Assembly (NCBI GenBank): GCA_003024785.1 | Contig: PUQB01000004.1 | Coordinates: 744,001 to 808,000, forward strand | Length of the DNA: 64,000 nucleotides | Direction of reading: 5' to 3' | Origin: Selaginella tamariscina | Taxonomy: Eukaryota; Streptophyta; Lycopodiopsida; Selaginellales; Selaginellaceae | Notes under the pieces: generated by a model | Told to the model about the DNA's origin: nothing | What the model saw: only the letters and a program-made list of their open reading frames with translations | The model's database searches: none | Shown: positions 3,691 through 64,000 of the stretch, one piece after another | Position numbering within the stretch: the stretch's first letter is position 1 | Layout: each line of letters opens with the position of its first letter | Position numbers and translations under genes: made by a program

Positions 3691-5046
3691 ACCACAGTCA
3701 GATTACCAACCAGTCACAACAAATTAAAATATGTGACTTTTATTAAAAAAATGTCAAGTGGCTGACATGTGAATCATTATGTGCAAAAGTTGCATTGGCA
3801 AAGTGGTTTTTTCTGAATGTGTATAGGGTTTTTTTAGCTTACATGATTTTTTAATCTGTTTTTTGATAGGGTTTAAATGTATGTATTTTTGCAAACAAAA
3901 CTCACATACAAAACTAAAAAAACCAAATGTGACTTTTGCATGCGATCATTCACATGTTAACCATTAGTTCTTTTTCATGGTTTTGTATACAACTTTTTCA
4001 TTTAGTATTTTATTTCTCAAATCTTTTTTCAATCATAAATTTGTTAAAAGTTATATTTAGAGTTTTTTTATGCGATCTTTTACATTTTATATGACTTTTG
4101 TATATGTGTACATGTCTGATTTTATTACTTAACTTTTTGATATGATTTATTATATGTTTTTGATATGTGATTTTAAGACGTGGTTTCAATGTAATTTTCA
4201 TCGAACTTTTGGTATTATTTTGAATATGGTTTTGAGATAGTTTTTTATATGTTTAATGATATAATTTTAAGAAGCGTTTATGAAAGTGATTTTTTATATT
4301 CTCAAAATACAAAAAAGTTATTATAAAAACTTATTTATTAAGCACAATTAACGAATTCCAAACATTCTTCTCCTAAGCTTTTAATGTCACTTTAAGTAAA
4401 CTATGTTCTAACGATGAGTTAAGAACATGTAACAAAGCCTGTTGGGTTTTTATAATTACTTTAAAATTTTGTGCAACAATAGTTTTTAAGATTCAACAAG
4501 TTTAGAATTTTTTCAATAAGCACTGTTGCATGAGCTTATGCTCATCGTTGACATTCTTAAAATCATTTATCTGTGGAGATGCATTTGGCACACATAGTTA
4601 TTAGATAACTCTCAGTACTTTAACATTTATTCAAGAATGTAAAAATATATATTTTACCTTTATCAAGAGCCTTTTTGTTCCTTTCTTTTATAATTCTCTT
4701 CTTTTTCTTTTGAATGTTTGTTAATGCTCCTCATGCGGTGTTGGTGTTCATCTTCATTTTGCTTTTCTCAAATGTGTTCCAAGAGAAGTTGTAGAGGACT
4801 TAAAGGTTCCACATAATCATTCTCTAGTTCCAATAATTACATACCAAATCAAGAAATTATAATAAAATCATTCAAAAACTCTTATTTCAATGTCTTTATT
4901 CATTTCCACTTTTATGTCATCATCATCATTATCATACATGTTCTCCTTTGAAATTAAAATTTTATAACACATTTCAAGCCAACACATTGTCATTTGCATA
5001 AAGATAAGAGAAGGAAGTTAATATAAATGAACATGTATTAAGATTG
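3691..5046. repeat. AT-rich non-coding part of the methylase-family repeat, inverted copy of 54.43-55.70 kb
   Basis: From about 3976 to 5046 this reads as the reverse complement of about 54432-55695, with high similarity and one deletion of roughly 180 bp near 4615. The homology stops exactly at the LTR that begins at 5047, which marks where LARD-like element II inserted. From 3691 to 3975 I see no match within the window and no coding sequence. ORFs here are AT-driven. Confidence 0.7.
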
Positions 5047-6599: not shown

Positions 6600-8150
6600 C
6601 TAATGGAAAACAATAACTTTGGAAGAAACATGGAGTAAGTTGGATGCAGGTTCCCAAGTGCGATCAGTAAGCAAATAACCTTTCCAATCCACCAAGTATT
6701 GAAGTTGACGGCGATGAAGACGAGAATCAAGGATGGCTGCAACTTCGTACTCAGGTTCACCGTCAATGACCATAGGAGGGGGAGGAGAAGAAGCACGACC
6801 AGGAAGAGAAGAAGGATGATACGGCTCTAACAAAGAGGTGTGAAACACAAGATGAAGTTTTACCGTAGATGGTAACTCAAGTTGGAAAGCTACAGGATTG
6901 ACCTTAGTCGCAATCTTGTAAGGGCCCAATCATTGAAAATCCAACTTAAAAGAAGGCCTATTGGTGCGAATATGCTGACGAAGAAGCCACATGAGATCAC
7001 CAATCTTGTATGTAGGTGCTGGTTGACAATGAGCATCAGCATGACGCTTGTACCGTTCTTGTGCCTATTAAAGATGAACCCGGAGATCCTCATGTACCTG
7101 ACAAAGATGCTGGAGACGATCCTATACTACAGGAGCGGAAAAAGGAGAAGCAGAAGGAGCAAAGTCAAAACGTGGATGGTAGCCTGTAAGAGCAAAAAAG
7201 GTGTCTGGCCTATAGATGCGTGAACGGAGTTGTTGTAGGCAAACTCCGCCATTAGAAGAAGGTCCAACCAGTTGTCCTGTTGGTAACTGATGAAGCAGCA
7301 AAGATATTGCTTCAAGGTTTGAATCGTGCGTTCTGACTACCCATCAGTTTGTGGATGGTATCCTGAAGAAAGGTCCGCTTTAACTTGTAGACTCCGGAGA
7401 AGTTCTCGCCAAAACTTGGACATGAATTGTGGGCCTCGATCAAAAACAATGCTCTTAGGAAGACCATGGTGTCGGAATACTTCGCGGATCACCAACTCAG
7501 CAGTTGTCTGGCTGTAGTAGTCTTGTGACATGGTAGGAAATGAACCTGTTTGTGAAACGGTCAACCACCACAAGAACTGCATCAAATCCACGAGAAGGAG
7601 GAAGATCTGTGAGGAAATCCATAGAAATGATCTCCAAGGAGCAGAAGGAACAGAAGAGGACGAAGAAGACCAAAGGGCATGTGACGAGGCATCTTTGACC
7701 TATTGCAGGTGTCACAACTCTGTACAAACTTGTCCACAAAACCTCGCAACGCAGGCCACTAATAATTGCGAGTCACCAACTCAATTGTCTTGGCCACACC
7801 ACAATGTCCTTTAGCCGGGGTATCATGACAATCTTGTACCACACAGTCCTGCAAACACCAACAGGAACGTACAGGAGACCTTCCCGTACAGGAGTTCATC
7901 TTGTATGGCAAACAACTTGTAGTCTGTACGGGAACTGGAGGAAGAGGAACTTGCGATGTCAGGACTAATGTGTGAAAACACATTCTTGCCAAGTCGTCTA
8001 TAGCCAACTGCAAATGGATGTCCTGTAGGAGTGTGGAATCTGCTGGAGCCTGATGAACTTGTAGTGCTAAGCCGAAGTCGATCAGGACCCAACAACACTT
8101 GCTTTTGACAGTCATATGCAGGATCGCCGGGGTCGGCAAGGTAAGAGCGC
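6600..8150 (-). pseudogene. Chromovirus integrase with C-terminal chromodomain
   Basis: From higher to lower coordinates: an HHCC-type zinc-binding part near 7700-7810 (GHCGVAKTIELV and a C-x-x-C pair); the catalytic core at 7497-7739 (MDFLTDLP) and 7337-7591 (IVFDRGPQF and GYHPQTDG); the region after the catalytic Glu at 7127-7315 ([15 protein letters not shown]); then VAFQLELP and a chromodomain at about 6620-6755 with EYEVAAILDSR, YLVDWKGY and TWEP. Chromodomains of this family direct integration toward particular chromatin. The segments sit in different frames, so several indels have inactivated it. Confidence 0.9.
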
Positions 8151-9476
8151 CTAGACAATGCATCCGCCTTGCCATTTCGAAAACCAGGCATGTAGATGAT
8201 GACGAAATCAAAAAGTGATAGGAACTCTGCCCACCTAGCCTATCGCCGACTGAGAACTCGAGCCGTTTGAAAATACTCCAGGTTCTTGTGATCCGTAAGA
8301 ACTTGTACAGGATGCGCAGCACCTTCCAGAAATGCCGCCACTCCTCGAACGAATCCACAATGGCCTTGAGTTCCTTGTCATGAATCTCGTAATTGATCTC
8401 CCGAAAGGAACTTACGAGAGTGAAAAGCTACAGGATGAAGCAACTTGTCTTCTCCAACTTGTGATAGAACAGATCCTACTGCAAAATCCGAGGCATCTGC
8501 TTCAACGAAGAAGGGACGAGAAGGATCAGGATGTGCTAAAATCGGAGCTGTCGTGAAGGCGTCCTTGAGTGTTGTGAATGCATGTTCCGCCTTGTCGGAC
8601 CAAGAGAACACTCCTGTGCGCTTGGTGAGTTCCGTGAGTGGAAGTACACGCTTGGAGAAGTCCTGTATGAAACGCCTGTAGAAGTTTGCAAAGCCAAGGA
8701 AACATTGTATGTCTCGTACAGACTTGGGCCTCTCTCCACTCGCAATAGTCTTCACCTTGTGCATGTCCATGGAAACGCCAGCAGGAGAGACGATGTAGCC
8801 CAAGAACTCCACAGTATCCCTGTCGAAGAAACACTTCTCCAACTTCGCATATAGGCCATGCTCGCGAAGCCTCTGTAGGACTAGTCGTACATGCTTGTCA
8901 TGAGCTGCCTGGTCCTTGGAGAAAATCAAAATGTCATCGAGGTAGATTACCACAAACTGGTCCAAGAAGTCACGAAAGATGTCGTTCACCATGTGTTGGA
9001 ACACGGTTGGGGCATTGGTAAGTCCGAAAGGCATCACCGTGTACTCAAAGTGTCCATACCTTGTATGAAAGGCAGTCTTCACTCATCGCCTGGACGAATC
9101 CGTACAAGATTGTAAGCCCCTCGTAAGTCGATCTTCAAGAACACCTTTGCTCCTTGCAGCCGATTGAGATGTTTTGAGATCAATGGCAACGGGTACCGGT
9201 TCTGAATGGTGACTTGATTCAAACCTTTGTAGTCCACAACCAAACGTAAACTTCCATCTTTCTTCTTGACAAAGAAGATAGGTGCTCCTGCAGGGGACTT
9301 TGAGTGACGAATGAAGCCGGATGCCAAGTTTTCCTCGATGTACTGACGAAGAACCTCCAATTCTGTAGGTGACAGTGCATAAATCGGTCCGAACGGTGGA
9401 GTCTTTCCTTCCACAAGATCGATAGGACAGTCGTAGGACCTGTGAACAGGAAGAACTGCAGCCTTGTGCTTGTCAA
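8151..9476 (-). pseudogene. Chromovirus reverse transcriptase and RNase H
   Basis: RT palm blocks are clear: [41 protein letters not shown], then [14 protein letters not shown] and the catalytic [10 protein letters not shown]. RNase H follows with FFVEADASDFAVG and, near 8180, MPGFRNGKADALSRR. A single-base deletion near 9080 removes the Trp codon between GDE and KTAFHT and splits RT in two. Another frameshift near 8370 separates RNase H. It would have copied element RNA in cytoplasmic particles. Confidence 0.95.
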
Positions 9477-9479
9477 AAA

Positions 9480-10063
9480 CGTCTGAAAGGAGTGATACTT
9501 GGATGGCAGGGAAGGAGGAGAAGAAAGAACAGGAGAAGGAGATTGAAAAACAGGGGAGTCAGATACAGGAAAGGTAAAGAGGACGTAGGAGTTACTTGGA
9601 AGGCAAAAAGATGAAAAGGAGCAGGATCAGTGGCAAGTTCATGCATGGTAGTGGTAAGAACTCAGAGAGAAGGAGGGAGTGTGATTGAAAAAGAGGAAGG
9701 ATCTTGGGGGTGGAATAGAAAAGAGTAATGAAAAGAGGCAGGATTGGGAGAAACATGTGTGGATGTTGACAAGTGTACAGGATTGGAAGAATCCTGTACA
9801 GAAGTCCGTGGATGTACAGGAGTGAGGAGAACTTGTGAGTGTGCTAACGAATCAATAAGAGGTGGATCCTGTTGAGGAGGAACCTTCGACACTGATACAG
9901 GATTGGAAGAACCCTGTACAGGAATCCGCAAACTTACAGGAGTGGAGAGAGCCTGCGGATGTGCTGAGGAACTGACATGAGGTGAATCCTGTCGAGGAGG
10001 AGTCTTCAACACTGATACAGGAACAGGCACGGTCAATCCTGTAGCTTGTACTGCCTCAGACAC
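9480..10063 (-). pseudogene. Chromovirus protease-RT linker, Ser/Pro-rich with duplicated segment
   Basis: The translation at 9662-10063 is rich in Ser, Pro and Val. It contains two consecutive copies of a segment of about 41 residues (PVSVLKTPP... then PVSVSKVPP...), visible as a DNA repeat of about 120 bp over 9770-10030. No domain is recognisable. It lies between protease and RT, where chromoviruses often have a variable linker. Confidence 0.6.
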
Positions 10064-31204: not shown

Positions 31205-32470
31205 GTGTTCGCGATCACAATCTATCCTTGCTCTGTTAAGGATGTTTTTGTTCCTGTTCCTCTTGCCTTATCAAAGCAATATGTTGATTTTGCAGACGTC
31301 TTCAACAAAAAGAAAGCTTTTGCCTTGCCACTGCACCATGAGTACGACTGTCCTATCGATCTCGTTGAGGGTAAGCAACCATCCTTCGGTCCCATCTACA
31401 GTCTCTCACCAACAGAGTTGGAGATATTGAGAATCTTGTCACCGAATTTATCCATCATTCGCGATCACCGGCTGGTGCCCCAGTATTCTTTGTTTCCAAA
31501 AAGGATGGAAGTCTCCGGCTCGTGGTGAACTACCGTTCCATTCCAAACAAGTATCCTCTCCCGCTCGTTTTCGACATGCTTGAGCGTCTTTCTGGTGCCC
31601 AATATTTCACAAAGATCGATTTAAGAGGAGCATACAATCTCATCCAAATCCAAGAAGGGGACGAGTGGAAAACAGCATTATGTACATGCTACAAACATTT
31701 TGAGTACGTAGTAATGCCGTTTGGCCTGACAAATGCACCTACTGTTTTTCAAACATGGCTAACGATATTTTCTGAGACTTCTTAGATTTGTTTGTCATCA
31801 TGTACCTAGATGACATCCTGATATTTTCCAAGACTCGAGAAGAACACGAACAGCATGTATGGTTAGTCTTGGAGAAGCTTCGAAAGCACCACATGTTTGC
31901 CAAGTTGAAAAAGTGCTATTTCAGTCAGTAGTCTGTCGAGTTCCTGGGGTACATCGTTTCAGCTGAAGGTGTTCACATGAATCCTGCAAAAGTCTGGACT
32001 GTATTGGAGTGGGAGAGACCATTAAATGTTCATGACGTTCGATGTTTCCTCGGGTTTGCAAACTTCTATCGACGTTTCATTCGGGATTTCTCCAAGATTG
32101 CATTGCCATTGACGAAGTTGACTGACAAGGATGCTGCATTTGTCTGGTCCTCTGAGGCTGAAAAGGCGTTCGAGTTACTAAAGAAGGCATTCACCTCGGC
32201 ACCTGTTCTTATCCATCCTGACCCTGCGAAGCCATATTTCGTGGAAGCTGATACCTTTGACTTCACTATTGGTGAAGTGTTGTCCCAGGAAGGTCCAGAT
32301 CATCTTCTCCATCCCATTGCTTTCCATTCCCGTAAGTTCACTACACATGAGATCAACTACAATATTTACAATAAGAGCTGCTGGCGATCGTCGATGCCTT
32401 TGAGGAGTGGTGCAGATTCCTTGAAGGTTCCCGCATGTGGTTAAGGTGTATTGTGATCACAAATGCACGT
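31205..32470 (+). pseudogene. Gypsy element 2 reverse transcriptase and RNase H (truncated)
   Basis: Blocks in order: [16 protein letters not shown], then a frame change, [31 protein letters not shown], another shift, [46 protein letters not shown] and FVEADTFDFTIGEVLSQ. An in-frame TAG precedes SVEFLGY where a Gln is expected. The sequence fades near 32465 just after a CDHK-like motif, and no integrase follows. Confidence 0.9.
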
Positions 32471-32479
32471 TGTAACTAA

Positions 32480-33090
32480 AATGGGCATGATACATGAAAA
32501 TGAGAATATAAAATAAATTGCTAATTAATACTTAAGTTTTAATTATTAATTAATTATTTAATTAATATATAATTAAGCCTTAAATATTAATTAATTAAAA
32601 ATTAATCCTTCAATAACCTTACTTAGTAAGGAATATTCCTAAAATATCTTAGAATATTCATATTCTTCTTCTAAAAATAGTTTACAATAATTAAAAATAC
32701 TATCAAACATAATTACAAATGAAATCATTTCCTTATCAACATGTTAATTTATTTATAAATACTTTCTCCTTAACCATACAGAAAATCTCTCATTTTGTCT
32801 AAATCATCACTCTCTGGATTAATCGAATCATTTTGGTCAATATCTTGATGTTGTTGCCACCACTAACACTCTCACGAATGCAATTGGAGTTGCCATCCTT
32901 GTTAATACATAAGATGTGATAAGACCAGGTTGCATAAAGGCTCATCTAAAAAATGACGTTCCTTAAGAATAATATTAAAAGCGCCCGGTTGCTCTCTTCA
33001 TTTTATAAAATTTAAAATCACGAGAAAGAAAAGCTTCAGGAAATGTTTATATGGTGGATATTCACAAAAGTTTTTGAGATTCTTCTTTCT
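32480..33090. other. AT-rich spacer
   Basis: No coding sequence recognised. The first 300 bases are strongly AT-rich with TTAATTAA-type runs. The latter part may hold exon remnants of the FCP1-like pseudogene, for example a minus-strand stretch SELLGYVPRKKNLKNF near 33060-33110. Confidence 0.5.
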
Positions 33091-33760
33091 AGGCACGTAT
33101 CCAAGTAGTTCACTAGCTCATCCATGATATTGGTATCAAATATGGATCGAAAGTGATTGATGAATACAAGCAATGTTTTGGTTGAGCATAGCCTTCTGAG
33201 GAGAGTCGTCTACCACTAAGATATGTGCGTTCTTCATTATCCTTAAGCGATTGATCTCCCTATCCCAATTATCTTTCATTCTTGAAGAAGTATGGCTTGC
33301 TTTCCTTTCTTATATTGTGAAATTCGAGAGGTTTATAACATATTTGCTGGTCAAAAATCCAATTTTACGAATCACCTCTTCTGCAACATACAATGTTTCT
33401 TAAGCAAATTCAACACGGTGTCAAGTTATGAATCTGCATGCATGACCAAATCCCCACAAGTGCACCCATCTCCTTAAGCTTTTGAAAGAGATGGTCCAAC
33501 CCGACGAAAAATATATCATATCGAAATTTACCATGACAAGGAATGAAATCTCCTTGTTTGATTTCTTTTTTTTATCCTCGGGCCTTTGTCATGAAGCAGA
33601 ACACCATTGACACCAACAACAATATGCCATGGTAACATAGTGGGTAGCGTTGCCTCTTGAATACTTTGCAACTCACTTGTTTGCTCCCTTTCACATTTAT
33701 ATTGACACTATATTGTTGCCTATCCCTTTATCATTTAATTGTACATCATCCTTACAAGAT
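33091..33760 (-). pseudogene. FCP1/NIF-like (HAD-family) phosphatase pseudogene
   Basis: Minus-strand segments spread over several frames follow the FCP1-homology order. VVGVNGVLLHDKGP is the position of the first catalytic motif, with Asn/Gly as in plant atypical members. ALVGIWSCMQIHNLTP and LNLLKKHCMLQKR follow. Then come FDQQICYKPLEF, KPYFFKN and MKDNWDREINRLRIMKNAH, and ILVVDDSPQKAMLNQN, the hallmark DDSPxK block. Frameshifts and stops separate the blocks. Family members dephosphorylate phosphoproteins such as the RNA polymerase II tail. It lies directly downstream of the ParB/methylase-like pseudogene on the same strand. Confidence 0.7.
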
Positions 33761-34160
33761 TCAGATATTGCAGGCTGAAAAATGATTTCGGAATGAAGCC
33801 AATAGAAATGGTGATGAAAAAACTGAAGTGGCCCCATGGTAAGATGTTTTGAGCTGCATTATTATCCATTTCCTGCATGAACTCTGTCATTCTGACATGT
33901 GGCACAAGAAATTTTCACCAAACCTCTCTTACCTCATTTAATGCTGAAAATCCATGTTCTCAATTGTTTCATTACATCTGCAAAATGATAGTTAGCTGAC
34001 CTTATAATTATCAAGGTATATTATTTACCTTGTTAATGTGTGACCCATGTTTGAATAAAAGCTTCATTAATCCTTGAGAATTTATTTTTGTACAAATATA
34101 AAAAATATACAAAAATGCCTTATGTTACACTCATTTATAATATTCGTCACTCTAAGAACT
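33761..34160. other. Non-coding spacer or introns between pseudogene segments
   Basis: AT-rich with scattered short frames. A minus-strand splice donor is likely at about 34183 (exon ending LLRLTQK, then GTAATA), so part of this may be intron. No further feature seen. Confidence 0.4.
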
Positions 34161-36830
34161 CATTAACAATTCTTCTTCGTATTACCTTCTGAGTGAGGCG
34201 AAGAAGGTTAGCCACTTGGTAATGTTCATGATCTTCCATCTTCTGTTGATGTTTCCATGGGTAATGGAGTATGTGAATGTTCTGTACTCCTCGAGATAAC
34301 TTCCGATCTAATATCTGATTGAAGTCGTCTTCAGACTCCGATTTGAACCAGATTTGTCTTCAGAGCTATCGCACTTCTCAGGAGGGAACTTTCCCAAATA
34401 CTCCTGTATGGGTTTGTTGGGTAGTCAGTTGAGAACCTCTCTATCCACTTGTTCAGGTCCTCAACCATGGTCTTATCATTTTCAATGGCAAACACACATG
34501 TATCCCAAGGTAACACTCCTTCAAGACAGACCCCTAGTGCAGTAGTCAAAAACCCATGCATCACTGTGAGGACCCCTGATCAAGTTGACGATGCTCCGTG
34601 CAGCTGACTTGTGATGTTTGGATAACGTACATTGCCAAATACGTCCCTCTCAGCTATCGGTGTATCAGGATGGAGGTTCAGGCCCGTTGAGTGCAAACAG
34701 ATGCCTGCCAGTCATTTGGAAAGTTTGAAATTGTTTGGCGGATTCCTAACAACCAAGTGAACAACTGTATCAATGCACTTGGGATCAGCATCGTTCATAT
34801 AAAATCCTATCCAACGATGTCGATTCTTCTTGGCAAAGATGAAGGCAAAAGTATCGGTGACATGAGCAAGAATCAAGAAATAAATACCTGAAAGTATTAG
34901 TTAAGAGTGCAAGCATGAATTCAATAATAAATACCTCTGTACATGCTTGCACGGCTAAGTTTCTCCACCAAATCCTCTAGTGCCCTATCTGTCGAAGGAT
35001 TTTTTGACACCCCCGATCCATCATGAACAATTGAAACGGTTTCCTACAAGCAGTGATGTTACTTCATAAAGTCTCCGAATCTAACAAAAACATCTGTAGG
35101 GCTTGTCGTGATTTGTAGCATCCTCCTTTATAAGGTTCAACTCGGTTCTCTATTGAAGGACTGCCATAAGAGAAGGCGTCATCGCAATGTTCTCCTTTTT
35201 GGCGTTGGCGTGCAATAGATTCTTGCCTAGATCTTCCGATTGGTTCACCCATTGGACAAGCATATCATCGTTTGTCACATGCAAATATTTGCTGACCTCT
35301 TCATATGTTGAGGCCGAGGTCCAACCCAGTTTCTGGCAATGTATTCCCAACCACTCCTTGAAGTGCCTGACCATCTTCAACTCTATTGCCTTGACATGAA
35401 AAGGAGAGGTGAGGCTGCTGTTGTTAATCTGTAGTTTGTCATCAATCACCAAATCAGCCAAGACTTCCATCTCCTCCATCGTTGTTCTATTTAAAGGCTT
35501 CAACCATGTGAGCTTGAAATCGTTGTCTACATCCTTTGTAGATTGAACAGACTTAGCTTTCGGCGTCTTACTGAGTTTCTTTGTAGACTTCTCTAAGGGT
35601 TCCCCTTCACTTGTCTGCTTCTTCTTCAGTGTTCCTTTTGCAAAGGATTCCATTATCCCCAACCATTTGGCAAAGATCTATCCTCAGGGCAAGAAATCAA
35701 CATCATCAAAAAGGATGTTTCCTTCCCGCCCACCTGGGTAAAATCAACTGCTGTAATTTCTTCAACTCTATAAAAAAAAGAGACAGATTAATATACTGGC
35801 AAGATAAATCCCACCAAGACAATTTACTTACCCAGTAGTTGGACATTGTTCTTTCCCTGCAATAGCTCTTTATGGTTGCTCAAGAGTTTCCCACACGAAT
35901 CGCGTGTGTTTGAACTTCTCCCATATTTTGCTATTATAGTGGTTGGTGTCGGCAGCATCCCATTTCGCCAATAACTTATGGTACTGCTCGATTGTGAGAT
36001 TCGGCTTAGCTAAAAATGCTAATCTTTTTGTCAGCTTCTCACGGGTATACTCATAAAGTTTTGTTGCCATCGTTCCTTTATTGTGTTCATTGAGAAGTCA
36101 TTGGGTTACTGTTATTGTGTGCTGGCCATTAATAATGTAGTACTTAATTGATTTTCTATTCTCCGTCTGAATCTTCGTGATTTGTTTTGGTGTTGTCACC
36201 CACACTTTCTCAGCACCTTTCTTTCTTTCATAGTATGGGCACAAAATAGCATTATGTGGAACGGTGTAAGACTTGTTGTCCTTCATTTTCTCCATGAGCT
36301 TAGCTACACATTCCTAGTTGAGTGGCATGTAATTAAAGTTTGAGTTAACGCTGCAATACTTAACCCTACACTCGTAAATCCTATTATCCAACATCATTTT
36401 CTTGTGGCTTATTGCAGCATGGAATGCCACAGGTGCAGCTGACAAAACGACAGATGATTTTCTTTTACGATCCGAATCAACATGTGTGATTCCCAACTAC
36501 AACTGTTCTAATGTTCTCGGCACACTCTTCCAGATCCTGAAGATTCCTAAGCAAATTGAATGTGATCTGTAAAGAACCTAGGACCGAGCCACCCTCTCAA
36601 TCTCCCTAATGATGTCGCTGTATTCTTCTTCAATAAGAAGAAGGACAATTGCTCCACTTGTGGATGTTTTGTATTGTGAAGCAATATCTGCTGAGAATAC
36701 ACCTACTCAATGAGTATGGAGATTTTCAAAATAGACATCTAATTGGATCCCCTCCATAGATGGGCTTTCGTTGAGTTGAAGAAGAACTCCATGGTCAACA
36801 TCACTAGTGAACACGTGAACGACATTAAAA
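34161..36830 (-). pseudogene. ParB-like / DNA-methylase-like gene, broken copy
   Basis: Reads right to left and matches 62170-64000 inverted at roughly 85-90% by eye. N-terminal part near 36700: EGIQLDVYFENLHTH-like. ParB/sulfiredoxin-like segment 35870-36440: VKYCSVNSNFNYMPLN, VAKLMEKMKDNKSYTVPHNA, then KYYIINGQHTITVTQ, resembling the R-P-L, helix and G-x-H-R-x-x-A layout. One intron (about 35770-35850) and then a basic linker ending KGTLKKKQTSEGEP and a helical region. The distal part has ALEDLVEKLSRASMYR, an intron, YFLILAHVTDTFAFIFAKK and CVFAIENDKTMVEDLNKW, which look like methylase strands. Stops at about 35153 and 34700 and frameshifts make it non-functional. Domain names are inference from motif layout. 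Confidence 0.5.
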
Positions 36831-54431: not shown

Positions 54432-55700
54432 AACACAATCTTAATACATGCTCATTTATATTAACTTCTTCCTCTTATCTTTATGCAAATGACAATGTGC
54501 TAGCTTGAAATGTGTTATAAAAATTTAATTTCAAAGAAGAACATATATGATAATGATGATGATGACATAAAAGTGGAAATGAATAAAGACATTGAAATAA
54601 GAGTTTTTGAATGATTTTATTATAAATTTCTTAATTTGGTATGTAATTATTGGAACCATATAATGATTATGTGGAACCTTTAAGTCCTCTCCAACTTCTT
54701 TTGGAACACATTTGAGAAAAGCAAAATGAAGATGAACACCAACACCGGATGAGGAGCATTAACAAACATTCGAAAAGAAAAAGAAGAGAATTATAAAAGA
54801 AAGGACCAAAAAGGCTCTTGATAAAGGTAAAATATATATTTTTACATTCTTGAATAAATATTGTTTAATAGATGTGTCATATAAATAAGTTGAAGAACAT
54901 GCAGCTAGTCAAGAAAGAAGAACTAAACATGGTCATGATGAAAGTATATATATATGTTTTCATATGCTCACATAAATATACACATTTAAGAATGCATATA
55001 TGTAAATATGTTTTACACGCAATCATTATATATATATATAAGTCCTGAGAGTTATCTTATATAACTATGTGTGCCAAATGCATCTCCACAGATAAATGAA
55101 ATCACTTTTGATTTTAAGGATGTCAACGATGAGCATAAGCAATTTCATGCAATAGTGCTTATTTAAAAAATTCTAAACTTGTTGAATCTTAAAAACTATT
55201 GTTGCATAAAATTTTAAAGTAACTTGAAAACCCAACAAGCTTTGTTACATGTTCTTAATTCATCTTTAGAACATGGTTTATTTAAAGTGACATTAAAAGC
55301 TTAGGAGAAGAATGTTTGGAATTCATTAATTGTGCTTAAGAAATAAGTTTTTATAATAACTTTTTGTATTTTGAGAATATAAAAAATCACTTTCATAAAC
55401 GCTTCTTAAAATTATATCATTAAACATATAAAAAACTATCTCAAAACCAGATTCAAAATAATACCAAAAGTTTAATGAAAATTTACATTGAAAACCATGT
55501 CTTAAAATCACATATCAAAAACATATAAAATCATATTAGAAAGTTAAGTAATAAAATTAGACATGTACACATATACAAAAGTCATATAAAATGTAAAAGA
55601 TCACATAAAAAACTCTAAATATAATTTTTAACAAATTTATGATTGAAAAAAGATTTGAGAAATAAAATACTAGATCAAAAAGTCATATACAAAACCATGA
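54432..55700. repeat. AT-rich non-coding part of the methylase-family repeat, inverted copy of 3976-5046
   Basis: Near-complete inverted match to the left locus, including about 180 bp (54870-55050) missing there. It retains the empty site of LARD-like element II: ATTAAGATTG is followed by uninterrupted sequence. No coding sequence. It continues into the minus-strand gene at 55750. Confidence 0.75.
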
Positions 55701-55749
55701 AATCCAACCCAAAATATGTTGAACCATCTTGCCGTCTTAATTCAGATGT

Positions 55750-56226
55750 TCACCACCTCATGAGGGATCTAGGATGCAATGTGCCATTAAGTGAAACCTC
55801 TGTCACAACTACACCTACGAAGTTGGACCCTAGTTTCTCTTCTGACACTGTTTCCATTGGATTTATAGCTATGATGATGCCTCTCCCAACTTTGATCTTA
55901 TGAAGAAAGAGAATCACCTCATCCATCATAGTAAACAAGCCATCATCTGGTGAACTCGTACTACTATTTGTTTGTGACTCTACATATTCTATGTCAGCCT
56001 TAACTTCATCCAAATTCCACAATATAGGAGAAACCTCCTCAAATTCCATTCCCGGAACCTCAACATGCTTGCAAATGGTGTTCACCCATATGTACACACA
56101 AGATCTTTGGGCAATATTATGACATGATGCATTATCATCTCGAACTTCCACAGTTCCAGTGCCAACTATCTCATTATTCCGAAGAAGACATACTTTATCT
56201 CCAGTATTATACATATTGTCCTGCAC
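55750..56226 (-). CDS. Small-domain protein of the methylase/ParB-like family (hypothetical)
   Basis: An open exon of about 158 codons whose upstream edge is a splice acceptor (TTTATGTGCAG), so earlier exons lie toward 56300. The N-terminal 60 residues, NTGDKVCLLRNNEIVGTGTV then EVRDD...YIWVNTICKHVEV, look like a small beta domain. They resemble the equivalent part at 61863 and, loosely, the short repeats of plant Ptta/En/Spm-associated proteins. An acidic region, PILWNLDEVKADIEYVESQT, and a conserved tail, DEVILFLHKIKVGRGIIIAI, follow. The frame is intact, unlike most others here. It is transcribed away from the palindrome array at 56365. Function unknown. Confidence 0.5.
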   Translation of the reverse strand: MQDNMYNTGDKVCLLRNNEIVGTGTVEVRDDNASCHNIAQRSCVYIWVNTICKHVEVPGMEFEEVSPILWNLDEVKADIEYVESQTNSSTSSPDDGLFTMMDEVILFLHKIKVGRGIIIAINPMETVSEEKLGSNFVGVVVTEVSLNGTLHPRSLMRW

Positions 56227-56364: not shown

Positions 56365-57262
56365 GATGGGCGGGATTAATCCTGCCCACGACTCCCTCCG
56401 ACGAGGAACGATGGGCGGCATTAATCCCGCCGCCGACTGTACCCCTTCGGAGTGAGCCGGCGGGATTAATCCCACCGACGAAGCTATCCCTTCAGAGAGA
56501 GTCGGCGGATTAATCCCGCCGACGACTCTACCCCATCGGAGAGAGTCGGTGGGATTAATCCCGCCGCCAATTCCCTCCCGTGAGGAAGAATCGGCGGGAT
56601 TAATTCTGCCGCTAGATCTTCCTCATTAGAGAGAGGCGGCGGGATTAATCTCGCTACGGACTCCCTCCAACGAGGAAGAAGCGGCGGGATTAATCCCGCC
56701 CCGGATCTTCCTTGTTGGAGAGGCGGTGGGATTAATCCCGCCGTGGACTCCCTCCGACGAGGAAGTACTGGCGGGATTAATCCCGCCGCCGAATTTTCCT
56801 CGTCAGAGAGAGGCAGTGGGATTAATCCCACCGCAAATCCCTCCAATGAGGAAGAAGGGGCGGGATTAATCCCGCCCACAACTTTGACGACGGGGAATAG
56901 GCGGCGGGATTAATCCCGCCCATAACTCTTTCTGAAGCTATGATTTCAAAGAGATCTCGGGATGAATCCTGCCCATAAATATTTAAAACAGGGAAGTGGT
57001 GGTGAGATTAATCCCGCCACCCCTTCTCTGCCTCCTAAAATGGTTGGCGAGATTAATCCCGTAAATAACTTTTTTAATAAATTCAAGTAACTCTTTATTA
57101 GTTGAGAGAGTTATCGGCGGATTAATCCCGCTCTTTTTAAGAGGCGGAGAAGCATTGCCCAACTAATTCTGCCATAGCTATCAAAGAGATGGTGGCGGGA
57201 TTAATCCCGCCACCTCTTCGAAAAGGCGAAAAAAAATGGCCGGATTAATCCCGCCGCCCCGG
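56365..57262. repeat. Palindrome array 1 (core GGCGGGATTAATCCCGCC)
   Basis: About nineteen copies or near-copies of an 18-bp perfect palindrome, spaced roughly every 45 bp in the first 550 bp and wider after. Some copies extend to 24 bp (GGTGGCGGGATTAATCCCGCCACC near 57190). Spacers alternate between CTCCCTCCGACGAGGAAG-like and TCTTCCTCNTTAGAGAGAGG-like sequences. It lies upstream of the minus-strand gene at 55750-56226. ORFs across it are artefacts of the repeat. Confidence 0.9.
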
Positions 57263-57888
57263 CTAACCGAGAATATTAAGTTAAAAGTATATTTAAACGG
57301 GATAAATCCCTAACAGAATATATTGTAATCCTAATGCATTCCTAAATCCCTAAATTCTAAAATTTAAGAGAGAATGTAAGAGAGTGAATCTTTATAAATA
57401 TATCTAAATTTGTTTATAATACTTACTTGTAAACAGCACTGAAGGCGGTGCTTTCTATAAACAATAGCGCACCCAATTTAATGTCGCTCCTGAGCTGATC
57501 ACTAAGAAGAAAAAAGAAAATCTGAAGAGTGAAAAATAAAAAATGAAGAAACCCTTGCCGAAGAAAGAACCAGATCTGAATTTGAGTGGGAAATTAAATG
57601 CATTTTCAAATTTACATGTCAGAGATAATACTTATGTCAGAAATTCGAAATTTTTGAAATAACAAAAAAGAAAATTTAAGATGAGTTGAAACAAATAACC
57701 GACAGTCTGACATATATACTCTCCAATTCCAATGAGTGTTTTAAAATTGCATTTAATGTCATTCAAGTGATTCAAGCTGTTTAATATTACGAAATTTTTG
57801 TAATTATTCTACATTCTTAATATTCAAGTATATATTATTAAGTTTATATTATATATATATACACTAATACAATAAATAAATTGATATT
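57263..57888. other. Spacer after array 1
   Basis: AT-rich, with a half-degenerate CGGGATAAATCCC at 57299-57311. No gene seen. Confidence 0.5.
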
Positions 57889-58620
57889 ATTATGTATCAT
57901 TTAAAATATATTCATAGTCTTTATTATTATTATTTTCTTAATTACTCGAGTAATTAATTTACATTTCCTACTATTAATGGGATATTCTTTATTATTTTCT
58001 TAATATTCAAAGAATATTCCAATATTAAACCTGATTATCATAATTAAATTAGTCTTATTCTTAATTATCTCAGTAATTATTCTACATTTGTATATATTAA
58101 TGGGATTTTCTCAATTAATTTGTTATTATTTCAAGAATATTCCTATGTTAAACCTTATTATCAATATTAAATTAATATATATTATTAAAACTATATATGA
58201 CTATATATTAAATAAAATGATGTATTATTATGTATAATTTAAAATATGTTCATAGTGTGTATATTAAATCATTTTCTTAATTACTTGAGTAATTAATCTT
58301 CTTTATATTAATGGATATTCTTTATTATTTTCTTATTATTCCAAGAATATTTCAATATTAAACATGATTATCATAATTAATTTAGTTAATTATTTCAGTA
58401 CTTGATCTACATTTGTATATATTAATGGGATTTTCTCAATTAATTTCTTATTATTTCAAGAATATTCTAATGTTAAACCTTATTATCAATATTAAATTAA
58501 TATATATTATTAAAACTATATATGGCTATATATTAGATAAAATCATATTATTATGTATAATTTAAAATATGTTCATAGTGTGTATATTAATATTATTTTC
58601 TTAATTATTCGATGTTTGTT
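57889..58620. repeat. AT-rich tandem repeat, period about 325 bp, 2.2 copies
   Basis: TTAATGGGATTTTCTCAATT and its surroundings recur with a step of about 325 bases (TGGGATTTTC at 58101 and 58426). Flanks match from ATTATGTAT(C/A)ATTTAAAAT onward. Confidence 0.8.
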
Positions 58621-59600
58621 TTGCACATATATATAAACACAATCATAAATTTATATATACACGTGCACACGCATTAGAAGCACTTACAGAGACACATATG
58701 CACACACATGCACATTGCCCTAAACCAAACTTGAGAAATTATATGTTGCTTCTTTATTGAAAAACATCATGTTCAACGCATGTATGATCTATATGTACTC
58801 AGTCTTGTGTATGTAACACATTGAATTTACACATGTAATATATATGTATGTTGTGTGTATACACGTGTGTATGTATATATGTGTACTAATATATGCAATG
58901 TGTACGATTTTCATTTGTTAACACTCTCTCTCTTCTCTCATACATACACAGTGTCACCATGCATAATCCCTTTCTCATATATACACACCATGCATGATCC
59001 ATAATATGTACTAATGTTACAATATTATGATATGTATAATGTATATCTGTGTATAATATGTGTACTATAATATATGCAATGCGTACAAAATTAATTTTTA
59101 ACACTCACTCCTCTCATACATAAACACCATGCATGATCCATCCTAACCCTAAACCCTATGTAACTTTACACATGTAATATGTATGTATGTCTGTGTGTAT
59201 ACACGTGTGTATGTATATGTGTGTACTAATATATGCAATGTGTATGAATTTAATTTGTTAACACTCTTTCTTTCTTCTCTCATTACATACACACCATGCA
59301 TGATCCATATATTATGTACTGTCTCTCTTCTCCAACATACACACCCATGCATGATCCATAATATGTATTGTCTCTCTTCTCTCATAATACACACCATGCA
59401 TGATCATGTACTCTCTCTCTAATATTAATATGTACTAATATATATGTATGTCTATGTGTATAATACTATGTGTGTATATATGTATCGCTGCACGTGAAAC
59501 TTTAACACTCTCATGGACACACACATGTTAAACCCCTGCATGATTTTTATTCTTGGGGTGTATGTGATACACCCACGCACACGCACACGCTGATAATATA
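58621..59600. repeat. Degenerate tandem region (CATGCATGATCC / TATACACGTGTGTATG units)
   Basis: The segment TATACACGTGTGTATGTATA through AATATATGCAATGTGTA to TTGTTAACACTCTCTC occurs near 58855 and 59195, with a shortened version near 59040. ACACCATGCATGATCC recurs at least five times. Low complexity; no gene. Confidence 0.75.
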
Positions 59601-59780
59601 ATGAAAGAATATTGTTTAGGGCGAATCTATAGTTTATTCTTTTTAGGGTTTAAGTATATTCTTAGAAGGAATATTCATTAGGGTTAATATATATTCTATT
59701 CCTTTTAGGGTTTAGGTATATTCCTAGGGTTTCAAGAAGTAAGGCGGCGGAGGCGGCGACTGTAGATCAGATCTCTCTCT
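59601..59780. other. Unassigned segment with duplicated TTTTAGGGTTTA blocks
   Basis: Two direct copies of a stretch of about 60 bp with TTTTAGGGTTTA and GTATATTC, followed by a short GC-rich AAGGCGGCGGAGGCGGCGAC. The AGGGTTT elements recall plant telo-boxes in promoters, but no coding sequence follows. Confidence 0.35.
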
Positions 59781-59923
59781 CTCTTCTCTCACACGCACAC
59801 TCCTGAGTTTATTTATTTATTTTTATTCACATATATATTTATATATGTGTGTATCTTAATAATATAATTTAGATCTCTATCTCTTGCACACACACGCACA
59901 CTCGTATACATATACACACACAG

Positions 59924-59971
<48 letters not shown>

Positions 59972-60239
59972 CTGTGTGCGTTTGTGTTTGTGTATCTGTA
60001 TAATTTTATTAATTTATTAATTTTATCTCTTGCCACACATGCACACTCCTATTTATCTGTATGATTTTATTTGTTTCGCTCACACACGCATACTCACGAT
60101 ATACATACACCACACACACACCACACACATATATATATATATACCTATATACATATAATATACATACATATATTATGTGTACCAGTATTTGTATAATTCT
60201 ATTTATTTATCTATCTCTCGCACACACACGCACACTCCT

Positions 60240-60292
<53 letters not shown>

Positions 60293-60575
60293 TATATATG
60301 TGTGTGTGTGTGTGTATCTGTATAATTATATTGATTTTTAATTGTATCTCTCACACACACACGCACACTCCTATATATACATATACATAAATATACATAT
60401 ATATGTGTGTGCGAGTGTGTGTATCTGTATAATCTAATTTATTTAGCACACACATACGATATACATACATATACATATGTGTGTGTGTATCAGTATAATT
60501 TTATTTGATTTGTCTATCTCTGGCACACACACGCACTCTCCTACACACACATATACATATAGATATATATGTGTG
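59781..60575. repeat. Higher-order microsatellite: CA, TA and TG tracts in units of about 110-130 bp
   Basis: A compound unit (TGTGTATCTGTATAATTTTA, then TTTATCTCTCTC, then CACACACACGCACACTCCTA, then TA and CA runs) repeats about six times. The longest pure CA run is at 59928-59960. Translations are artefacts. Confidence 0.85.
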
Positions 60576-60579
60576 TAGC

Positions 60580-61440
60580 GGTGAGATTAATCCCGCCGCT
60601 ATATGGTTAGACCCTTGATGGCGGGATTAATCCCGCCGCCCCTTCAAGCAGGCTATTCGGTTAGCCTCATGATGGTGGGATTAATCCCGCCACCATTTTA
60701 AGCAGATTATTCGGTTAGCCTTATGAGCGGCGAGATTAATCCCGCCGCCCATGAGGCTAACCAAAGAGCGGCGGGATTAATCCCGCCGGCCATGACCTAC
60801 GTGTTGGGCCTAGGTAGCGGGATTAATCCCGCCGCTACATGCCCTGTGCGGAATCGGCGGGATTATCCCGCCGCCAATGGCTGTGAAGGGCCTAGGGGCG
60901 GGATTAATCCGCCGATTCCCGCAGGCATGGCGGGCGGGATTAATCCGCCGCCATGGCCTGCTGGGCCTAGGCGGCGGGATTAATCCCGGATTCCGCACAG
61001 GGAATTGGCGTCCGGCGGATTAATCCCGCCGCATAGGGACCGAGTGAAGGCCCTGGCGGGATTAATCCCGCCGAGCCTTCAATGCCTGTTGGAGGAATGA
61101 ATCCCGCCACCCTTCCTTTTTCTCCATTGGTGAGTCGGACCAATCCCAAACGTTTCTGTCTGAGACGTAGAAGGTTTACAACATACCAATGGAGGACTGG
61201 AAGGGTGGCGAATTCATTTAACCATCCCTTACATGGTGGGCGAGATTAATCCCGCCCCTTTCTGGAGTCACTGAAGGGGTGTGCCAAATAAATCCTGCCC
61301 AGTTCTCTCTGAGACCGAGAAGGGTGGCAAGATTAATTCCGCACTCCCGTTCAAGGCCTCCAGAAAGGTGGCGAGATTAATCCCGCCCACTCTTTCAGGA
61401 GGCATTGAAGGGGTGGCGAGATTAATCCCGCCGCACCTTC
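60580..61440. repeat. Palindrome array 2 (core GGCGGGATTAATCCCGCC)
   Basis: About nineteen copies or near-copies of the same core as array 1, at about 40-50 bp steps, but with unrelated spacers (for example AGGCTATTCGGTTAGCCTCA and TTCCGCACAGGGAATTGGCG). Conservation is confined to the palindrome. The array lies upstream of the plus-strand gene starting at 61775, mirroring array 1 and its divergent gene. Confidence 0.9.
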
Positions 61441-61546: not shown

Positions 61547-61633
61547 AACTGTCCAGAGCTCACATTTGTGGTGGTTCTAAAACGAAATGTTATCTTTCTT
61601 TTGCACTAGCACAAATGTGAGCTTTGGACAGTT
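61547..61633. repeat. Near-perfect 24-bp inverted repeat (foldback)
   Basis: The left arm AACTGTCCAGAGCTCACATT continues with TGTG. The right arm is its reverse complement with one mismatch, which would be G-U in RNA. The loop is 39 bases. Its size and pairing suit a small-RNA precursor or a tiny foldback element. It lies between array 2 and the first exon at 61775. Confidence 0.7.
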
Positions 61634-61774: not shown

Positions 61775-64000
61775 ATGGAGTCGTCGTCAAATTCTGGGTA
61801 AGAATTAAAATAAAATCTGTTATACTCGGATATGTGCTTGAACTAATCATTTTTGTATTCAGATGTGGAATTGAGGTGACATTAAAGACGAGAGCAGGAG
61901 AAGAGATGGGCAGGGGGATTCTGGAATCAACTTGGCCATATTTCAAACTAAACGGGAAGCGCATTGGAACCATGGTTGCTGTCAAACTAACCTCTGTCAC
62001 ATCGCATGGACAAGCAAAACAATGGAAAGTGGGTGCTAGTCAAGCATCCGAAAGCATGCTGAACCCAGATTGACGATGCTCGACACATATGCCTTGTTCC
62101 ATCCAATGTCACGTTCTCGGATCCAGAGGTCCAGTTACAACATTAATTTCGGGTGGTTTTGTCGACTTGTGGATAATGACGTTCACGTGTTCACTAATGA
62201 TGTTGACCTTGGAGTTCTTCTTCAACTCAACGAAAGCCCATCTATGGAGGGGATCCATCTGGATGTCTACTTCGAAGATCTTCAGACTCATCGAGTAGGT
62301 GTATTTCAGGAGATATTGCTTCACAATACAAAAATCACAAGTGGAGCAATCGTCCCTCTTCACATTGAAGAAGAACACAGCGACATCATAAGGAGATTGA
62401 GAGGGTGGCTTGGTCTCAGGTTCTTTACAGATCACGTTCAATTTGCTTAGCAAATTTCGGGAGCTGGAAGAGTGTGCCGAGAACATTAGAACAGCATCAA
62501 TCGGGGATCACACATGTTGATTCGGATCGTAGAAGAAAATCTTGTCGTTTTGTCAGCATCCCATGCTGCAATAAGCCACAAGGAAATGATGTTGGATGAT
62601 AGGATTTACAGTGTAGGGTTAAGTATTGCAGCGTCAACCCAAACTTCAATTACAGGCCACTCAACCAGGAACGTGTAGCTGAGCTCATGGAGAAGATGAA
62701 GGACGACAATTCTTACACCGTTCCACATAATGCTGTTTTGTGCACACTACGAGAGAAACAAAGGCGCTGACAAAGTGTGGATCACAACACCGGAACAAAT
62801 GAGGAAGATTCAGACGGAGAATAGAAAATCAGTTCAAGTACTACATCATTAGTGGCCAGCACACAATAACGGCAGCCCAACGACTTCTCGACGAACACAA
62901 CAAAGGAACGATGGCAACAAAACTTTCGAGCATACCCGTGAGAAGCTGACAAAAAGATCGGCGTTTTTAGCGAAGCCGAATCTCACAATCGAGCAGTACC
63001 ATAAGTTATCGGCGGAATGGGACGCTGCAGACACCAACCACTACAACAGCAAAATATGGGAGAAGTTCAAACACACGCGAGCCGTGTGGGAATCTCTTCA
63101 GCGACCACAAAGAGCTACCGCAGGGAATACACAATCTGCGGACTCGGGTAAGCAAATTGTTTGGGCGGGATTTATCTCGCCGGTATATTAATCTGCTTTT
63201 TTTCTCAGAGAGTTGAAGAAATTGTAGCAGTTGATTTTGCCCAGGTGGGCGGGAAGGAAACATCCTTTTTGATGATGTTGATTTCTTGTCCCGAGATAGG
63301 ATCTTTGCCAAATGGTTGGGGATTATGGAATCCTTTGCAAAAGGAACACTGAAGAAGAAGCAGACAAGTGAAGGGAGCCCTCAGAGAAGTCTGCAAAGAA
63401 ACCCAGTAAGACGCCGAAGGCTAAGTCTGTTCAATCTATAAAGGATGTAGACAACGATTTCAAGCTCACATGGTTGAAGCCTTTAAATGGAACAACGATG
63501 GAGGAGATGGAAGTCTTGGCTGATTTGGTGATTGATGGCAAATTACAAATTAACAACAGCAGCCCACCTCTCCTTTTCATCTCAAGGCAATGGAGTTGAA
63601 GACGGTCAGGCACTTCAAGGAGTGGTTGGGAATACACTGCCACAAACTGGGTTGGACCTCGGCTTCAACATACGAAGAGGTCAGCAAATATTTGCATGTG
63701 ACAACGATGATATGCTTGTCGAATGGGTGAATCAATCGGAAGATCTGGGCAAGAATCTATTGCACGCCAACGCCAAAAAGGAGAACATTGCGATGACGCC
63801 TTCTCTTATGGCAGTCCTTCAGCAGCGGAGAACCGAGTTGAACCTTATAAAGGAGGATGCTACGAATCACGACAAGCCCTACAGATGTTTGTTGTTGGAT
63901 TCGGAGACTTTATGGGGTACCATCACTGCTTGTAGGAAACCGTTTCAATTGTTCGTGATGGATCGGCGGGTGTCAAAAAATCCTTCGACAGACAGGACAC
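61775..64000 (+). pseudogene. ParB-like / DNA-methylase-like family gene, right copy (runs off window)
   Basis: Exon 1 starts MESSSNSG and ends at 61797 with a GTAAGA donor. The acceptor TTGTATTCAG at 61862 leads into CGIEVTLKTRAGEEMGRGIL and NGKRIGTMVAVKLTSVT, a small-domain segment like that at 56.2 kb. A region with LNESPSMEGIHLDVYFEDLQ follows (about 62225-62290). The ParB-like segment (62585-63140) is in broken frames with FKYYIISGQHTITAAQRLL and FLAKPNLTIEQYHKLSAEWD. An intron at 63147-63209 holds one GGGCGGGATTTATCTCGCC. RIFAKWLGIMESFAKGTLKK and NLIKEDATNHDKPYRCLLL come after it. It matches 34.9-36.8 kb inverted. Stops near 62072 and frameshifts around 62300-62700 and 63380 suggest a pseudogene. 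Confidence 0.55.

Follow-up and report, generated by a model that had tools for sequence, protein, structure and literature searches.

Arrays of an 18-bp dyad upstream of two divergent genes in a large DNA transposon of Selaginella tamariscina

Two dyad arrays and the element that carries them

The window analyzed here is a 64,000-bp stretch of the Selaginella tamariscina genome (assembly GCA_003024785.1, contig PUQB01000004.1, positions 744,001 to 808,000, forward strand). It contains two arrays of an 18-bp dyad, neither of which is assigned a strand, and parts of two divergent genes, A and B. Array 1 (56369..57255) consists of 19 dyad sites with a modal step of 45 bp, and its edge lies 156 bp upstream of the start codon of gene A. 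Array 2 (60580..61432) consists of 17 sites and one more with a 1-bp deletion, and its edge lies 343 bp upstream of the start of gene B. The central spacer between the arrays (57256..60579, likewise unstranded) is AT-rich and microsatellite-rich. Gene A is present as a fragment (55698..56214, minus strand; start codon at 56214-56212) corresponding to approximately the first 170 codons. Gene B is represented by its 5' part (61775..64000, plus strand), with exon 1 at ~61775-61797 and exon 2 from ~61863 (splice sites by eye). It is frame-shifted in this copy, and the homology runs past the window to 65858. The location of array 1 before gene A and array 2 before gene B agrees with the initial annotation, in which the palindromes were placed upstream of two divergent genes.

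When up to 3 mismatches are allowed, GGCGGGATTAATCCCGCC matches the window 33 times, 32 times inside the arrays and once at 63164, against a chance expectation of 0.02 (100 dinucleotide shuffles). The palindrome clusters are thus real. The array site counts of 19 and 17 come from a looser site model that leaves the centre free. The deleted copy, GGCGGGATTATCCCGCC at 60856-60872, is by eye an array 2 site minus one base. Most steps are 44-45 bp in array 1 and 36-55 bp in array 2; each array also has three longer gaps. The spacers, described as free in the initial annotation, are not so within an array: adjacent ones resemble each other, some directly and some as reverse complements. The two arrays also have 74 bp in common, in inverted orientation and at 80% identity. 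The half-site AATCCCGCC is identical in both arrays and in both subfamilies of the element described below. The lone site GGCGGGATTTATCTCGCC (63164..63181, plus strand) lies within a short intron of gene B whose ends were set by eye.

The comparison of copies in the genome (300.7 Mb, 1,391 contigs) revealed sharp ends: an A end, ATGCAAGTTGTAACTAAAATGGGCATG, and a B end, ATGCACGTTGTAACTAAAGTGGGCATG. These termini are 27-bp terminal inverted repeats (TIRs) beginning with ATGCA. The TIR pattern with at most 2 mismatches occurs 4,064 times (2,081 + 1,983), and the reversed control 0 + 0 times. Among 16 insertions, the target site was duplicated exactly over 4 bp in eight, over 5 bp in one and over 3 bp in one, and was not duplicated in six; the pairing of ends was assumed from their spacing for nine of these insertions, and the single ends L045 and L046 were left out. 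The full copies C84 (14,753 bp) and C80 (14,815 bp) both have 4-bp duplications, identified by eye. Complete copies outside C1 and C726 were hand-picked from the TIR list. The open frames with a DUF7869 match are located inside the element that has these TIRs and target duplications. The comparison indicates that both arrays belong to a single, truncated copy of a DNA transposon that is dispersed in the genome and ~14.8 kb long when complete. The window copy is a truncated remnant, since its homology to other copies ends at 55698 on the A side; on the B side it is broken at 65858 by an oppositely oriented copy.

The exact 12-mer GGGATTAATCCC occurs 37,819 times in the genome, and the reversed word 91 times. 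The pattern GGCGGGATNNATCCCGCC has 28,776 matches and its reversed control none, and its two free bases are TA in 93, AA in 4 and TT in 3 of the 100 matches listed. The initial annotation had proposed a genome search for palindrome clusters beside the gene family. Within C1:1-1,809,779, 100 of the 100 exact 12-mers listed lie inside spans homologous to the element, including one diverged relative. These spans were set by homology, the whole 10-kb stretch being counted for C1_125; in the rest of the genome the sites were counted only. Clusters without a link to the family, a result that the initial annotation named as refuting, are excluded for this part of C1. A complete copy carries 26-27 exact 12-mers. 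Dividing 37,819 by 26-27, or 4,064 by 2, suggests that the genome holds the equivalent of roughly 1,400-2,000 elements, of which many are truncated.

Other copies were observed near the window copy. A second B-half remnant (32463-36827, minus strand) is about 90-91% identical and has its own B end at 32463; its AA-centred site at 35798 is probably the counterpart of the site in the B intron. Beyond the window (window coordinates 65859-94000 of C726), the tail-to-tail copy from 65858 is followed by a nearly complete copy at 72491-85628. At C1:895000-934999, two element copies have identical flanks, suggesting a segmental duplication that included the transposon.

Position, divergence and symmetry of the dyad sites

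Distances from the arrays to the genes were determined from 11 copies, omitting those without a readable start. The first array 1 site lies 154-156 bp from the start codon of gene A in eight of the nine measurable copies; in the ninth, which retains a single array 1 site, the distance is 183 bp. The last array 2 site lies 336-345 bp from the start codon of gene B in 8 of 8 copies. In C84, the arrays are 3.8 and 5.2 kb inside the element ends. Because of the fixed short distances to both start codons, the arrays are promoter-proximal and not subterminal. The number of sites per array differs among copies, from 11 to 25 (at most 3 mismatches). Separately, a single site is left at the place of array 1 in a copy on C726 from 87581 (window coordinates).

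The dyad cores and the spacers have diverged at different rates. The comparison was between C84 and three members of the other subfamily. The differences in the 18-mer cores were 12/270, 14/234 and 7/211 in array 1, and 16/339, 11/240 and 17/342 in array 2, while those in the spacers were 101/456, 91/407 and 68/367 in array 1, and 79/584, 57/438 and 87/604 in array 2. The cores thus differ by 3.3-6.0% and the spacers by 13.0-22.4%, in six of six comparisons between subfamilies. When the mask was shifted by 22 bp, five of the six comparisons showed no difference (p 0.087-1) and the remaining one had more variation under the shifted mask (p 0.015); these p values are descriptive, as the copies share ancestry. 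The identity between subfamilies is 97.1-98.9% for gene A and 96.5-96.9% for gene B, and 83.6-87.0% for array 1, 85.8-86.0% for the centre and 89.0-90.0% for array 2. A symmetric core kept while the spacers drift is the pattern expected of sites for a dimeric protein, as the initial annotation had suggested. Selection on the 18-mer core is likely, though not proved because gene conversion within arrays could add to the conservation.

The two arms of the site do not vary together. In 54 non-redundant sites with unrelated flanks, drawn from 336, the arms agree in 244 of 324 cells at arm positions 4-9, against a shuffled mean of 242.9 (824 of 2000 shuffles reach 244). Symmetric substitution is therefore no more frequent than chance, an outcome that the initial annotation had set against its own interpretation. 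Co-substitution, however, is not required of a site built from two half-sites that vary independently. The half-sites look to be conserved independently of each other, which fits two protein subunits, each reading one half-site. An apparent co-variation of the arms in 263 redundant sites (z 4.2) was read as pseudo-replication because it vanished in the 54 non-redundant sites, and a reading of C-to-T changes as methylation decay was dropped for the same reason. Some copies had been reported to reach 24 bp. At the outer arm positions 10-12, 73 of 162 cells agree against a shuffled mean of 62.3 (67 of 2000 shuffles reach 73), which weakly supports an extension past 18 bp.

Arrays are also observed in diverged relatives. 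A relative at C1:1,781 kb, ~80% identical in gene B, has TA-centred sites upstream. An older relative near C1:1,819 kb shows 45-67% amino-acid identity in matched pieces, and when used as a DNA query it gave 92 matches, with 40 of 357 candidates scored. Nine loci chosen from these and the old relative itself constitute the diverged set. Eight of the ten carry between 2 and 10 sites before gene B, 37 in total; shuffled sequence gives a mean of 0.05-0.12 and a maximum of 2. As C562 and C1276 are practically one copy, the independent loci with arrays number seven. In the eight loci, 12 of 29 site-to-site steps are 43-47 bp. Their site centre is AA in 18, TT in 18, AT in 1 and TA in 0 of the 37 sites, while in eight young copies under the same scan it is TA in 268, TT in 20, AA in 12 and another pair in 11 of 311 sites. 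The presence of sites before gene B in diverged relatives indicates that the array and the half-site are old and that the centre is lineage-specific. In the old relative (L019, ~8566-8647), 82 bp of gene B match the opposite strand of several relatives, a sign that this short piece may have been inverted locally.

Genes A and B

Counted from the A end of C84, the leftward gene A extends from ~3627 to 511 and comprises open frames of 660 and 392 codons. The arrays follow at 3782-4517 (array 1) and 8013-9582 (array 2), with a 3.5-kb AT-rich, microsatellite-rich centre between them, and gene B runs rightward from 9926. Both frames of gene A match DUF7869 (PF25273), with E-values of 2.8e-12 (660 codons) and 1e-26 (392 codons), and gene A is a probable transposase. 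The first part of gene A also shows a weak, sub-threshold match to PF03017 (TNP1; E 0.0037).

The long exon of gene B is a 478-codon open frame in copy C391. The far end of gene B contains a NIF-phosphatase-like stretch (PF03031, E 5.1e-12). The first motif of phosphatases of the NIF/FCP1 type is usually DxDx. In the NIF/FCP1-type frame at the 3' end of gene B (L008:2477-3544, minus strand) it reads DVNG, and because of this substitution the frame may be inactive; alternatively, it may be captured from the host. Above the cut-off, the Pfam matches are limited to DUF7869 for A and NIF for the B region, with no TNP2 or MULE-type (VANA) transposase among them, and no TET/JBP domain was recognized in the Pfam scans of A and B. 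In B, the stretch WVFDYCTRGSVLKEC looks methyltransferase-like by eye but has no Pfam match, and it is not claimed as such. The structure prediction for the long exon of gene A was unusable (mean pLDDT 31.1). No relatives of A or B were found among the proteins searched, and DUF7869 is not mentioned in the literature searched.

For the 392-residue exon of gene A, the best-scoring 105 of 6,983 candidates are 99-100% identical and without stops, as are the best-scoring 150 of 5,191 candidates for a 223-residue exon piece of gene B. The element has been active recently. It gives DUF7869 a mobile-element context with defined ends.

Interpretation of the arrays and other features

The arrays may well serve as cis-regulatory DNA for the two divergent genes of the transposon, at which a dimeric, probably element-encoded regulator would keep the promoters active or unsilenced; we hold this reading with about as much confidence as doubt. 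Each array would be a tandem series of half-site pairs, GGCGGGAT/ATCCCGCC, in ~45-bp steps, with a constant spacing between its edge and the start codon downstream. The array would be filled by a DNA-binding dimer, most likely the product of A or B, and the bound array would hold both divergent promoters in an active or unsilenced state, in the manner of VANC in VANDAL elements. The effect would thus be on expression, not on transposition.

Among transposons, anti-silencing that is element-encoded and sequence-specific is, as far as is known, best documented for the VANDAL elements of Arabidopsis. VANC proteins are described as binding short motifs that differ among families; the motifs make up tandem repeats in the noncoding DNA of VANDAL elements, where they diverge fast, and for VANC21 the motif has the 9 bases YAGTATTAY (PMC5735166, PMC10398659). 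The element described here likewise has tandem motif arrays in noncoding DNA beside its genes, and the arrays diverge faster than the genes. It differs in that its only transposase-like domain is DUF7869 and not a MULE-type VANA, in the 4-bp target duplication where exact, and in having 18-bp dyads at ~45-bp steps instead of a 9-base motif. As the transposase differs, the element is not filed as a VANDAL member; the resemblance would be in the mode of working. Fungal DNA transposons with TET/JBP dioxygenases are another case of a further gene thought to counter silencing (PMC12730594). They share with the element the possession of such a possible gene, and differ in the dioxygenase domain and in that the available part of the source describes no site arrays for them.

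Several points weigh against the regulatory reading. It is drawn from sequence. The long exon of gene B (C391) has no Pfam match and no recognized DNA-binding domain, and the only Pfam match relevant to DNA binding in the first part of gene A is PF03017, below the cut-off. The binder could also be a host factor. The lower divergence of the cores could in part be due to homogenization of the arrays, and the copies are not independent. Two of the ten diverged relatives, C73 and C758, have no array and one weak TA-centred site each, and C953 has only 2 sites, equal to the best shuffle maximum. The diverged loci are moreover not an unbiased sample for arrays, since the query held ~270 bp of upstream sequence with sites. 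The difference of the centre, TA against AA or TT, does not hinge on the sampling.

The binding of a host transcription factor is unlikely, but it is a real rival. The arrays would be captured sites, for example of E2F, driving both genes. The motif GGCGGGA resembles the plant E2F core, and the arrays are promoter-proximal, but AATCCCGCC departs at the second T from the E2F consensus. Plant miniature inverted-repeat transposable elements (MITEs) and Helitrons amplify E2F sites, a similar case of transposons spreading transcription-factor sites in large numbers (PMC12595863). In the present element, however, the sites are dyads in 14.8-kb gene-bearing copies. Their lineage-specific centre, which is unexpected for a fixed host factor, weakens the rival.

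It is slightly less probable still that the arrays serve transposition, with an accessory protein of the element coating them, folding the element and aiding the transposase in pairing the ends, as TNPA does at the subterminal repeats of CACTA elements. TNPA is described as binding many such repeats, variable among families; in soybean Tgmt*, such repeats can form palindromes, and the right border has 24 repeats, including 12 palindromes (PMC2613891). The element resembles CACTA in its dense repeats and its encoded proteins; the PF03017 match of gene A is weak and below the cut-off. It has multi-site arrays on both sides of the centre, and the array edges and the TIRs are both conserved. The CACTA repeats are, however, subterminal, whereas the arrays lie beside the start codons, 3.8 and 5.2 kb from the termini, and the lone site lies in an intron of gene B. 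Membership in CACTA/En-Spm, whose subterminal sites were one hypothesis of the initial annotation, was rejected: the ends are ATGCA and not CACTA, the duplication is 4 bp where exact and not 3 bp, and the arrays are internal.

We consider it very unlikely that the arrays are a mere minisatellite in which unequal exchange, and template switching at palindromes, homogenized the palindrome. The variable array length and the related, sometimes inverted, spacers are in its favour. Homogenization should nevertheless affect 18-mer and spacer alike, yet it is the spacer that changes while the 18-mer resists. The half-site is also kept in two arrays and both subfamilies, and it recurs in the diverged relatives, as does a 43-47-bp step in 12 of 29 cases. 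The other hypothesis of the initial annotation, in which the arrays would be a parS-like cluster onto which a ParB-like clamp domain of gene B loads, can practically be set aside: the stretch RPLNQERVAELMEKM...YYIISGQHTITAAQRLL recalls a ParB/Srx N-domain by eye and the unreliable structure model of this exon (mean pLDDT 39.8) has helices and strands in a compatible order, but six scanned forms of the segment (L021:7580-8209, L011:9045-9524, L048:683-1513, L006:6741-7325, L011:9177-9485 and L060:142-1578) gave no ParBc match in Pfam, one form had no match among solved structures and another had only two, weak and unrelated (E above 1), and NCBIfam, PHROGs and a phage search (one form each) gave no support.

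If the arrays are regulatory as proposed, the element family looks like an independent case of anti-silencing on an unrelated transposase. Tentatively, and with more doubt than confidence, it could represent a class of large DNA transposon not described before, with DUF7869 in its transposase and its own sequence-specific system of self-recognition and anti-silencing, unrelated to VANC in protein and transposase. The dyad arrays phased at ~45 bp before each gene would be its cis code, and subfamilies would have shifted the centre from AA/TT to TA as a private code. By estimate, a single genome holds more than 1,000 copies; the best-scoring ones include near-identical open genes, and there are natural subfamilies with different site centres. 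These properties make the coevolution of the binding protein and the array directly testable.

Two further features were observed in the window. The 5' leader of gene B contains a hairpin with a long stem (61547..61633, plus strand) between array 2 and the start codon, with a minimum free energy of -48.9 kcal/mol (z -10.1). Its sequence is found in 11 of 14 copies, the other three being those without a readable B start. Scanning of 45 open frames in the window detected reverse transcriptase, RNase H, integrase and chromodomain sequences of retrotransposons, two DUF659 matches and one amino-acid transporter.

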